Below are positions 19,155 to 22,522 of a stretch of 64,000 nt of DNA, in pieces. Numbering within the stretch: position 1 is the first letter of the stretch; each line of letters opens with the position of its first letter. The stretch is from positions 1 to 64,000 of the forward strand of contig CALINO010000010.1 of the NCBI GenBank assembly GCA_938045295.1. The letters are read 5' to 3'. The notes under the pieces are model-generated. The model worked only from the letters and a program-made list of their open reading frames with translations, ran no database searches and was not told the DNA's origin. Position numbers and translations under genes: made by a program. The DNA is from an uncultured Arenicella sp. (GTDB lineage: Bacteria > Pseudomonadota > Gammaproteobacteria > Arenicellales > Arenicellaceae).

Positions 19155-19754
19155 CTAGTCCGCCGAACGACGGTCTTTAAACGCTGCAGCCAGAGTACGT
19201 TGATCCATATACTCAAGCTCACCACCCACCGGCACTCCGCGCGCCAAGCGAGAAATAGTAATATCGTATGGCGCCAGCAATTGCTGAGTGTAATCGGCGG
19301 TTGCGTCTCCTTCTGCGGTGATATTAGTGGCAATCACCACCTCGGTTATTTCATTTTCGGCCACCGTTTTATTGAGCTTAACGAAACCTAACTTTTCTGG
19401 CCCAACGCCTTCTAATGGCGACAGCCGCCCCATTAATACAAAATACAAACCGCGGTAAGCACCAATTTGCTCAATGGCTTCAAGATCAGCGGGGGTTTCC
19501 ACCACACACAATAATGACTGATTGCGCTTGGCCGACGAACATATGTCACACAGTAATGATTCGCAAAACGTATTGCAGCGCTCGCAACTGCGAACCGTTT
19601 CTAACGCATAATTCAACGCATTGGCTATGTCGCGCGCGCCCTCACGATTACGTTCCATCAAGTGAAACGCCATGCGTTGGGCATTTTTTGGCCCCACACC
19701 AGGCAGCACTTTAAGAGCTTGCTTAAGGGCTTCGATAGCGGCTGAAGTAGACAC
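19155..19754 (-). CDS. recR: recombination mediator RecR
   Basis: A 199-residue RecR protein, which loads RecA at gaps together with RecF/RecO (recO is also in this window). Visible in order are the helix-hairpin-helix LPGVGPKNAQRMAFHL near the start, the zinc finger CERCNTFCESLLCDIC at about 57-72, and a Toprim domain (LLCVVETPADLEAIE) reaching the conserved C-terminal ARGVPVGGELEYMD. Length is standard. It lies 12 bases downstream of ybaB and follows the dnaX-ybaB-recR order. Confidence 0.97.
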   Translation of the reverse strand: MSTSAAIEALKQALKVLPGVGPKNAQRMAFHLMERNREGARDIANALNYALETVRSCERCNTFCESLLCDICSSAKRNQSLLCVVETPADLEAIEQIGAYRGLYFVLMGRLSPLEGVGPEKLGFVKLNKTVAENEITEVVIATNITAEGDATADYTQQLLAPYDITISRLARGVPVGGELEYMDQRTLAAAFKDRRSAD

Positions 19755-19766
19755 GAGTAACGAGAA

Positions 19767-20096
19767 TTAAAACGGCACTTTCATGCCAGGAATGTCTAAC
19801 CCACCGGTTAAACCTGACATTTTTTCTTTCGTGGTTTTTTCAACTTTGCGCACCGCGTCATTCATGGCGGCAGCAACCAAGTCTTCGAGCATCTCTTTGT
19901 CTTCAGGGTCACCCATCAACTGAGGGTCAATGCTGACGCTTTTCACATCATGCCGGCAAGTCATAACAAGTTTCACCATGCCGCCGCCAGCTTCACCGGC
20001 CACTTCAATATTGGCCAATTCTTCTTGTGCTTTTTGCATGTTGTCTTGCATGGCCTGAGCCTGCTTCATTAAATTACCTAAACCGCCCTTCATCAT
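19767..20096 (-). CDS. ybaB: YbaB/EbfC family nucleoid-associated protein
   Basis: A 109-residue homologue of YbaB/EbfC, a small dimeric DNA-binding protein. The N-terminal [20 protein letters not shown] helix, the central [18 protein letters not shown] sheet and the C-terminal Met/Pro-rich PGMKVPF are family hallmarks. In many bacteria the gene sits between dnaX and recR, as here, and the three are usually co-transcribed. The precise role of the protein is still open. Confidence 0.95.
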
Positions 20097-20176: not shown

Positions 20177-22285
20177 TTAGTGAGAAATAGGCTTAATTGA
20201 ATTTTCTTTAATTGTGGCACTGAACTCGTGCATTATAGATTGCACAGCCGGGTCATTGCGCATTGAATCGCGCACCTGCTCTTCATGCTCATAGCCTAAA
20301 CGAGACAAACACTCGGCTGGGGTTTCACGGTCACTGTCGTCAACCTCTAAAGTCATGCCCAACTCAGCATTAGTAATGGCACGCACTGCGTTTTGTATTG
20401 CATCAAAACGGCCTTGATCAAATAAGTGCTCTAACTTAGGCGACAACGACAGATTAATTCGCTCGTCATTAATGCGTTCAGCGGCGCAATTCATGGCCAA
20501 CTCTTTAGCCATGCCAACTAACGAGGTTTGCTCAACCAACTCACCCCATTCATTATTGCCCGCCAAGGTGACGGCAACCAAACTTAGCGCCTGCGAATTA
20601 GGCTGGGCTGTATTCGGTTGCACTGCGCTGGGCTGAGCTGCATTAGGTTGAGTGTCATGAGGTTGAGCCTCATTAGACTGAATTTCATTAGTTTGAATTG
20701 TAGCCGCTTGCTGAGCATACTGCTCTGGCACGTCAGGCTTAAGCGATGACACAGGCTGCGCACGGCTTGGTACGTTTTGCTCAATCACTTGGGTTGTTTC
20801 AGCCTTTATTGGCGCCTCTTGAGCGGCCTCAGACGTAAACTCAGGCATAAACTCAGATGGAGCTTCTTGCCAAGGCGGAACATCGGCATGCGGTGCAGCG
20901 GCTTCTGCCGGCATGTTGGCTTCTGGCAACTCGCTCTGGCTTTCAGTAACACCCTTAGTGGCGATAGCCGATTCCATTGGGCTTGGAACGGTTGTTTGTG
21001 GAGCTACTTGGGAATCTGGGTGAGAACCTGCTTGCACATCTGGAAACGGCTGCGCTACCGGTGCGCTGGGCGCTTGATCGGTATTTTCACCGTCTAAAGA
21101 AGTGTCGAGGCCGGCGTTTTCAATCGTTTTTTTTTCAGCCGTTTTTTTTTCAGTCAGTTGCGAAACAGCGCCCGATGGCGGTACCGCGCTTGGCTCTAAA
21201 TCGCCCGGCTCAAAGGCGAACATTCTTAACAACGCCATTTCAAACCCAACTCTAAGGCTCGGCGCTAAACTGATATCGCGCTTAGAGATAAGCCCGATTT
21301 GGTAAAACAATTGCAGCGCTTCGGGCGATGCTTTCTTTGCCCAATCATTGACTTTAGCCGCGTCAACGTCCGCCACCTCCACAGAACTGGGTGACACTTG
21401 AGCCAATGACACATAATAAAGCTGCATTAACACTTCATCTATGGCCACAGTAAAATCCACGGCCTCATCGGCCATGTCTGCCACCACCGAAAGTGCTTGG
21501 TCTACATCATGAGACAGCAAGGCTGAAACAATACTTTCTGTGTGCTTGGTTTTAATGGTGCCCAACATGCTTTGCACGTCGGCAATACGAACTTCACCGC
21601 CGCCTTGAGCAATGGCTTGGTCTAATAAACTTAAACCGTCGCGCATGCTGCCATCAGCCGCTTTAGAAATGGCGTGCAAGGCTGGCGAATCGTATTCAAT
21701 TTTTTCTTGGCCAAGAATTTTGACCAACTGATTTTCAACTTGCTCTGGTCGCATTGCCCGCAAGTTAAACTGCAAACAGCGAGAAAGTACGGTGACGGGT
21801 AATTTTTGCGGATCGGTGGTGGCGAACAAAAATTTAACGTGCTCAGGCGGCTCTTCCAAGGTCTTAAGCAATGCATTAAAGCTGTGCCCTGACAGCATGT
21901 GCACTTCGTCAATCAGATATACTTTGAATTTGCCGGAGGTGGGCGCGTATTGCACGTTTTCTAGCAACTCGCGAGTGTCATCCACTTTAGTTCGCGACGC
22001 CGCATCCACTTCAATAAGGTCTACAAAACGGCCTTCATCAATGGATTGACAGGTAACGCATTGCTGGCAAGGTTCGGCACTGGTGCCCTGCTCGCAGTTC
22101 AATGATTTGGCAAAAATTCGCGCTAAGGTTGTTTTACCCACACCTCGGGTGCCGGTAAATAAGAACGCGTGGTGCACACGGCCTGAATCGAGCGCATTAG
22201 AGAGTGCTTGCACCACATGTTGTTGACCGACAACTTCGGAAAACGCTTTGGGTCGCCACTTACGGGCAAGTGCAAGGTAGGCCAT
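20177..22285 (-). CDS. dnaX: DNA polymerase III subunit tau (and probable gamma)
   Basis: A 702-residue clamp-loader subunit. The N-terminus has Walker A GTRGVGKTT (45-53), zinc cysteines 64/73/76/79, Walker B LIDEVHML and the SRC motif in TVLSRCLQF. Domains I-III end near residue 370. After a Pro/Ala/Gln-rich linker (about 385-590, with QPN/QPS repeats) comes the tau-specific polymerase-binding part. At codons 379-382 and 384-387 are two A9 tracts whose -1 frame stops at once (TGA), which predicts a gamma product of about 383-388 residues, as in E. coli. The SRP RNA gene lies just upstream. Confidence 0.96.
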   Translation of the reverse strand: MAYLALARKWRPKAFSEVVGQQHVVQALSNALDSGRVHHAFLFTGTRGVGKTTLARIFAKSLNCEQGTSAEPCQQCVTCQSIDEGRFVDLIEVDAASRTKVDDTRELLENVQYAPTSGKFKVYLIDEVHMLSGHSFNALLKTLEEPPEHVKFLFATTDPQKLPVTVLSRCLQFNLRAMRPEQVENQLVKILGQEKIEYDSPALHAISKAADGSMRDGLSLLDQAIAQGGGEVRIADVQSMLGTIKTKHTESIVSALLSHDVDQALSVVADMADEAVDFTVAIDEVLMQLYYVSLAQVSPSSVEVADVDAAKVNDWAKKASPEALQLFYQIGLISKRDISLAPSLRVGFEMALLRMFAFEPGDLEPSAVPPSGAVSQLTEKKTAEKKTIENAGLDTSLDGENTDQAPSAPVAQPFPDVQAGSHPDSQVAPQTTVPSPMESAIATKGVTESQSELPEANMPAEAAAPHADVPPWQEAPSEFMPEFTSEAAQEAPIKAETTQVIEQNVPSRAQPVSSLKPDVPEQYAQQAATIQTNEIQSNEAQPHDTQPNAAQPSAVQPNTAQPNSQALSLVAVTLAGNNEWGELVEQTSLVGMAKELAMNCAAERINDERINLSLSPKLEHLFDQGRFDAIQNAVRAITNAELGMTLEVDDSDRETPAECLSRLGYEHEEQVRDSMRNDPAVQSIMHEFSATIKENSIKPISH
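21121..21156 (-). promoter_or_regulatory. tandem A9 slippery tracts in dnaX
   Basis: On the coding strand there are two copies of CTGAAAAAAAAACG in direct succession (A9 runs at 21150-21142 and 21135-21127). In frame they read ACT GAA AAA AAA ACG, then GCT GAA AAA AAA ACG. Slipping by -1 (or adding one A) gives AAC GGC TGA after the first run and AAC GAT TGA after the second. Nine-A runs drive transcriptional slippage in Thermus dnaX; E. coli uses A AAA AAG ribosomal frameshifting at the equivalent place. Confidence 0.7.
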
Positions 22286-22415: not shown

Positions 22416-22522
22416 GATGACGGCTAACCTGATCACAGCACCCGAATCAGTTGCTACGGCTGCTCCCTTCCGGGCCTGACCGAGTTCACAACTTATCGCC
22501 ACTGTGGAGACTAGCCGCCACC
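22416..22522 (-). ncRNA. ffs: signal recognition particle RNA (4.5S, bacterial small type)
   Basis: Read on the minus strand, the region contains the SRP RNA core GGTCAGGCCCGGAAGGGAGC followed by AGCC, which includes the GGAA tetraloop hairpin and the asymmetric loop bound by Ffh. The outer ends GGTGGCGGCTA and TAGCCGTCATC pair to close the long hairpin, giving about 107 nt. Ends are estimated from this pairing. It is located upstream of dnaX, in the same direction. It is followed by a stretch of about 130 bases before the dnaX start. Confidence 0.95.

Follow-up and report, generated by a model that had tools for sequence, protein, structure and literature searches.

Does the dnaX gene of an uncultured Arenicella species specify one clamp-loader protein or two? 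How widely bacteria need both the long DnaX protein (tau) and the short one (gamma), and what sets the ratio of the two, are questions of long-standing debate. For E. coli itself, the matter is described as one of considerable controversy (PMC5009743). The DNA analyzed here, a stretch of 64,000 nucleotides from one contig that we call the window, carries a dnaX gene with two runs of nine A's (A9) in close succession. Judging from its sequence and from those of its relatives, this doubled A9 probably lets the single dnaX gene make both a long and a short protein.

The layout of the locus is summarized in the table. Tau is encoded in the zero frame by a single ORF, and the Pfam matches comprise DNA_pol3_delta2, DNAX_ATPase_lid, DNA_pol3_gamma3 (residues 233–357, the end of the domain III match) and DNA_pol3_tau_5 (residues 576–697, tau domain V). 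A YbaB gene comes after dnaX and is followed by an ORF that we take to be recR-like, and a small SRP RNA lies directly upstream of dnaX.

Table. Features of the dnaX locus, in positions of the window
Feature	Position	Strand	Basis
dnaX, full-length tau, 702 aa	20177..22285	-	ORF and Pfam matches
A9 tract 1, codons 379-382 (GAA AAA AAA ACG)	21142..21150	-	sequence
A9 tract 2, codons 384-387 (GAA AAA AAA ACG)	21127..21135	-	sequence
-1 frame TGA after tract 1 (AAC GGC TGA), 383-aa product	21135..21137	-	sequence and computed product
-1 frame TGA after tract 2 (AAC GAT TGA), 388-aa product	21120..21122	-	sequence and computed product
15-nt in-frame tandem repeat, 2.5 copies, holding both tracts	21117..21153	-	TRF
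YbaB gene	19767..20096		
ORF after the YbaB gene	19155..19754		
Small SRP RNA	22420..22515	-	

The starting point was a sequence-only reading of the window, which had reported the unit CTGAAAAAAAAACG twice in dnaX. Re-reading of the minus strand confirmed that the two copies are present, 15 nt apart and in frame; the strand reads CTG ACT GAA AAA AAA ACG GCT GAA AAA AAA ACG ATT GAA AAC, in which codons 379–389 run from the first GAA to the GAA that follows ATT. Both tracts lie past the clamp-loader core, as had been claimed, approximately 21 codons beyond its end, and the half copy of the 15-nt repeat lacks a long A run. The predicted stops are in place as well, since a -1 shift at either tract brings in TGA as the third codon, the second TGA ending one base outside the interval that had been marked. 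It is also true that the two tracts share the same stop arrangement, but this is partly automatic: a duplicated unit brings its stop along, and the TGA that closes the -1 frame after tract 1 runs into tract 2. In the +1 frame, stops are located at codon 16 for tract 1 and at codon 11 for tract 2.

Translations were computed for slipped messages. One extra A in tract 1 gives a protein of 383 residues ending in EKKNG, and one extra A in tract 2 gives 388 residues ending in EKKND, so that the sizes first proposed for a gamma-like product (383–388 residues) were correct. One A fewer or two more, in either tract, leads to 396–397 residues ending in RLKTPASTLL. Every single-tract slip computed (8, 10 or 11 A's) results in a protein of 383–397 residues that keeps domains I–III.

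A9 occurs twice in the window, both times in dnaX, and dinucleotide shuffles of the window hold 7.67 on average, with at least two in 97 of 100 shuffles; two A9 runs are thus no excess in number. In the genome as a whole (3.0 Mb), the 15 A9 positions correspond to just 12 distinct runs of at least nine A's (A≥9), one of them an A12, indicating that long A runs are rare in this genome, and two of the 12 fall within one 24-nt stretch of dnaX. What is notable is therefore the scarcity of A9 in the genome together with the placement of both copies 15 nt apart in dnaX, and not their number. The other sense-strand A≥9 runs of the genome lie in the open frames L067, L053, L059 (the A12), L058 and L065, the first four of which, from their translations, are presumably truB and dgkA-like, sulfotransferase-like and acyltransferase-like genes, respectively. 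In L067 and L053 the run is found within the first codons, where a slip would cut the protein short almost at its start.

Within the genus, a linker A9 is present in three of 18 genomes, namely that of the window, with two, and those of G002 and G012, with one each. All four runs are in one phase (xAA AAA AAA ACn) and in all four the third -1 codon is a stop; these stops (TGA, TGA, TGA and TAA) arise from GCT GAA, ATT GAA, CTT GAG and GCT AAA. Apart from this, the linkers of the three species align poorly, and their N-terminal 340 residues are 79–86% identical. In a tree of the N-terminal part of dnaX, which excludes the linker trait, the three form a clade with support of 99/99 for DNA and 83/94 for protein, the protein bootstrap being unsettled, and one change on this tree explains the distribution of A9 in the genus.

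The sequence-only reading had held that absence of the tracts from close relatives would count against a switch. Such absence is the case for most congeners, though not for all: two of the 17 do have one A9, but in the other 15 the linker has no run of even six A's (the L004 and L010 genes among them are truncated at the ends of contigs), indicating that the trait is either dispensable or was gained late. The linkers surveyed hold 26 X_XXY_YYZ heptamers with a -1 stop within three codons, none of them in these 15 congeners, and no replacement site was found. Repeat linkers of the PAPQAA type occur in dnaX of four congeners that lack A9 (L004, L006, L010 and L012). The simplest history would be a single gain of A9 in the clade and a later duplication in the lineage of the window; the alternative is that A9 was retained from an older ancestor, with many losses.

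In order to place the site in a broader context, we surveyed 221 distinct dnaX genes: the window's own, 17 from the genus, three from the family, 74 from elsewhere in the order and 126 from elsewhere in the class. Matches were obtained in 105 of 109 genomes of the order and in 344 of 369 of the class; 95 of the 105 were used for the order, and 126 of 340 for the class beyond the genus, all taken from the best-scoring among the matches listed, with some skipped. One locus was left out as a repeat (L031, of L013), four gave no N-terminal match (L034, L035, L051 and L052), and some of the surveyed genes are cut by contig ends (for instance L004, L010 and L180–L184). Linker limits were set by rule, starting at codon 362 and stopping 135 codons short of the end. 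The same scan recovered the E. coli site, an A6 at codon 428 with a -1 stop as the second codon.

The linkers hold 15 A≥9 runs, in 14 of the 221 genes, and only the gene of the window has two. Permutation of codons within each linker predicts 1.55 such runs (the largest of 400 permutations giving 7), and permutation of synonymous codons only predicts 6.27 (largest 11), against which the excess is modest. The -1 frame closes by the third codon at 11 of the 15 A≥9 runs versus 11 of 55 runs of six to eight A's (A6–8; Fisher p = 2e-4), and the difference is sharper for runs in the phase of the window (10/14 versus 1/14). The background for such a stop is 2133 of 15736 linker positions, or 269 of 1499 in the genes with A≥9. 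These sites cannot be counted as independent: on the tree, the 10 genes that have a -1 stop nearby require six changes and all 14 require nine. Counted per gene, the -1 stop appears in 10/14 versus 10/38, and per family in 6/9 versus 5/22 (p = 0.03). Four A≥9 runs have no -1 stop within three codons (L101, L184, L196 and L202), and at L184 the +1 stop is the second codon.

Distances to the stops are short in both shifted frames. At A≥9 runs, the -1 stop has a median distance of 3 codons, compared to 11 at random positions of the same linkers (p = 0.003), and the +1 stop a median of 6 codons compared to 17 (p = 0.006; for the mean, 4e-4); the +1 stops of the window belong to the more distant ones in this set of 15 runs. 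A further 28 dnaX loci of one family (f156), five of which look cut or broken (L317, L327, L330, L335 and L338), yielded three new A≥9 runs of A9 to A10 (L312, L314 and L315). Their -1 stops are at codons 3, 4 and 2 and their +1 stops at codons 2, 2 and 12, in phases unlike that of the window, so that two of the three lie within the three-codon -1 limit. We note that GCTGAAAAAAAAACACTTGAAAACGCC, found in L276/L310 of this family, bears a striking resemblance to the second tract of the window. In five members of the order (L131, L132, L135, L137 and L139), the dnaX linker carries C_CCC_CCG with a -1 TGA one codon on, a candidate for another, C-based kind of shift site.

On these grounds, we read the site of the window as a likely case, with a probability of roughly 0.7, of a selected slippage site of the Thermus type. 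RNA polymerase would slip on the A9 runs, so that dnaX transcripts gain or lose A's. Where the change is a multiple of three, the transcript would still give tau. In all others a stop would follow shortly, after two sense codons in the -1 frame or after 10 or 15 in the +1 frame; the resulting gamma-like proteins would lose the polymerase-binding tau region. The in-frame duplication, which probably took place on the species' own branch, would offer two chances to slip in a row. Of the switch between tau and gamma first proposed, by slippage or by the E. coli mechanism, the slippage half is well supported, on comparative grounds, by the retention of A9 with re-made stops in the clade, the enrichment of A≥9 and the near stops in both frames, and the E. 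coli mechanism is the less favoured.

If ribosomal -1 frameshifting of the E. coli type made the gamma-like product on A_AAA_AAA, polymerase slippage would be minor. This is an unlikely account, although several features fit it: the heptamer is in phase at both tracts, the nearest stop is that of the -1 frame, and a tRNA-Lys with anticodon TTT is present, the sole tRNA-Lys among the 30 matches listed, from which several expected tRNAs are absent, so that one with anticodon CTT may exist as well. A_AAA_AAG, the shiftier heptamer, also occurs at L223 and L242, two of the 11 A≥9 runs that have a -1 stop nearby, but not at the tracts of the window, which are both A_AAA_AAA, and in E. coli A_AAA_AAA is reported to be much less shifty (PMC5009743). 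Downstream folding is weak, at -7.9 kcal/mol (z 0.02) and -8.2 kcal/mol (z 0.70) for the two tracts, the stem of the E. coli control being visible at -19.7 kcal/mol (z -0.10), and no Shine-Dalgarno-like element is seen upstream, the best match to AGGAGG being 3/6 and that of the E. coli control just 4/6. The hairpin z-score was dropped as a test because it was near zero for the E. coli positive control too, and with a Shine-Dalgarno score of 4/6 in that control both stimulator tests are weak. Polymerase slippage yields longer and shorter messages and therefore gains if each of the shifted frames has a stop; for ribosomal -1 shifting the -1 stop would suffice, and the near +1 stops would not be needed. 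It is, moreover, at A≥9 rather than at A6–8 that -1 stops are in excess. Thus, near stops in both frames favour transcriptional slippage, with a possible ribosomal contribution by -1 shifting on A_AAA_AAA.

Slightly less probable again is a neutral origin, in which a lysine-rich disordered linker gained an A9 that replication slippage then duplicated, the truncated protein being noise. Indeed, linkers of the congeners evolve fast and are prone to repeats, most congeners lack the tract, and given E-K-K-T and local codon use the probability of A9 is approximately 0.32. Chance of this kind does not readily account for an A9 kept with re-made stops in three diverged species, nor for the excess of A≥9 runs and the short stop distances in the two shifted frames. 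An assembly or sequencing error, to which homopolymer runs are prone, is very improbable: the lengths of both tracts keep the 702-codon frame through the conserved tau domain, and exactly nine A's are also found in the separate assemblies of the two sister species, the duplication itself coming from one assembly.

Thermus-type slippage, the preferred reading, has a close precedent. Thermus thermophilus dnaX is described with an A9, stops in both other frames and a tau:gamma ratio of approximately 1:1 (PMC5009743, PMC1088944), and slippage there reaches about 50% with the one A9 (PMC5009743). The dnaX gene of the window is alike in having nine A's in the sense strand, here after domain III, a tau encoded in the zero frame by one ORF and near stops in both shifted frames; it differs in having two tracts in tandem, in belonging to a gammaproteobacterium and in that slippage is here a prediction from sequence. 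With E. coli dnaX it shares the gene and a gamma-like protein that would end at a -1 stop just past the shift site, but in place of A_AAA_AAG it has A_AAA_AAA followed by A and C within A9, and neither a Shine-Dalgarno-like element nor a strong stem is seen.

Other precedents are more distant. In dnaX genes split into two ORFs joined at a poly-A (Chlorobium and others), the poly-A is present in 12 of 17 and transcriptional slippage has been proposed (PMC3711429); the A run is common to these genes and to the window, but there tau needs the shift, whereas here it is the unshifted product. Transcriptional slippage of 15–55% on homopolymers in Citrobacter rodentium tssM1 and Shigella mxi/spa (PMC4256274) concerns other genes, and in tssM1 it restores the full-length frame, whereas a slip in the window would truncate. 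Blochmannia dnaX has a poly-A frameshift, but downstream of the gamma site (PMC3017870), and the 'tandem slippery' sequences of PMC7618844 are engineered virus mutants, unrelated to this case. Since A9 slippage, A_AAA_AAG shifting and the reversed two-ORF form are all described, the kind of site is already known. In searches of the open-licence PMC literature, to which the Larsen 2000 paper on Thermus, a possible source of more dnaX genes with A runs, does not belong, neither a dnaX gene with A9 in tandem nor A9 slippage making gamma in a gammaproteobacterial dnaX was found. As far as searched, the new elements are Thermus-type sites in six of the gammaproteobacterial families sampled and the tandem duplication, found in one of 221 dnaX genes.

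What the second tract adds can be judged less firmly. The sequence-only reading had seen in the pair a redundant or strengthened switch; the anatomy fits, but the second tract is seen in this genome only, and a role of its own is slightly short of an even chance. A simple model, for which the slip spectra were assumed, gives 70% tau for one tract that leaves 70% of messages in frame and 51% for two such tracts, so that, with these assumed numbers, duplication could carry a weak site to the known ratio of approximately 1:1; the second copy would thus raise the share of gamma. It is about as conceivable, and compatible with slippage, that one tract works while the second, duplicated recently, has no function of its own, given that the doubled form is seen in only this one of 221 dnaX genes and that the duplication by itself supplies the stop of tract 1. 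If one A9 slips, however, a second should add to it, and the duplication would not be silent. Tandem A9 is rare, furthermore: a strict pattern (A9 after C or G with no A following, twice, 4–30 nt between the runs), which leaves out runs that are longer or preceded by T, was found at 13 places in 11 genomes among the 369 of the class, and in a tblastn against these 13 the N-terminal part of DnaX matched only at the locus of the window. An A8..A8 pattern was set aside as too loose.

At slippage-type dnaX sites, the near stops in both frames, sampled in six gammaproteobacterial families, suggest repeated selection for a short DnaX. A 2005 survey found slippage sites of the truncation type difficult to judge from comparative sequence analysis (PMC1088944), and the comparison of stop distances is one way past that difficulty. 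Tentatively, the duplication of an A9 unit with its own stop may be a dosage step that lifted gamma from the share which one weak site gives to a ratio near 1:1, and Thermus-type dnaX sites may, more broadly, be gained and lost time and again in Gammaproteobacteria, as a cheap and evolvable means of setting tau:gamma. With zero, one or two tracts among its members, this single genus would offer a natural dose experiment.
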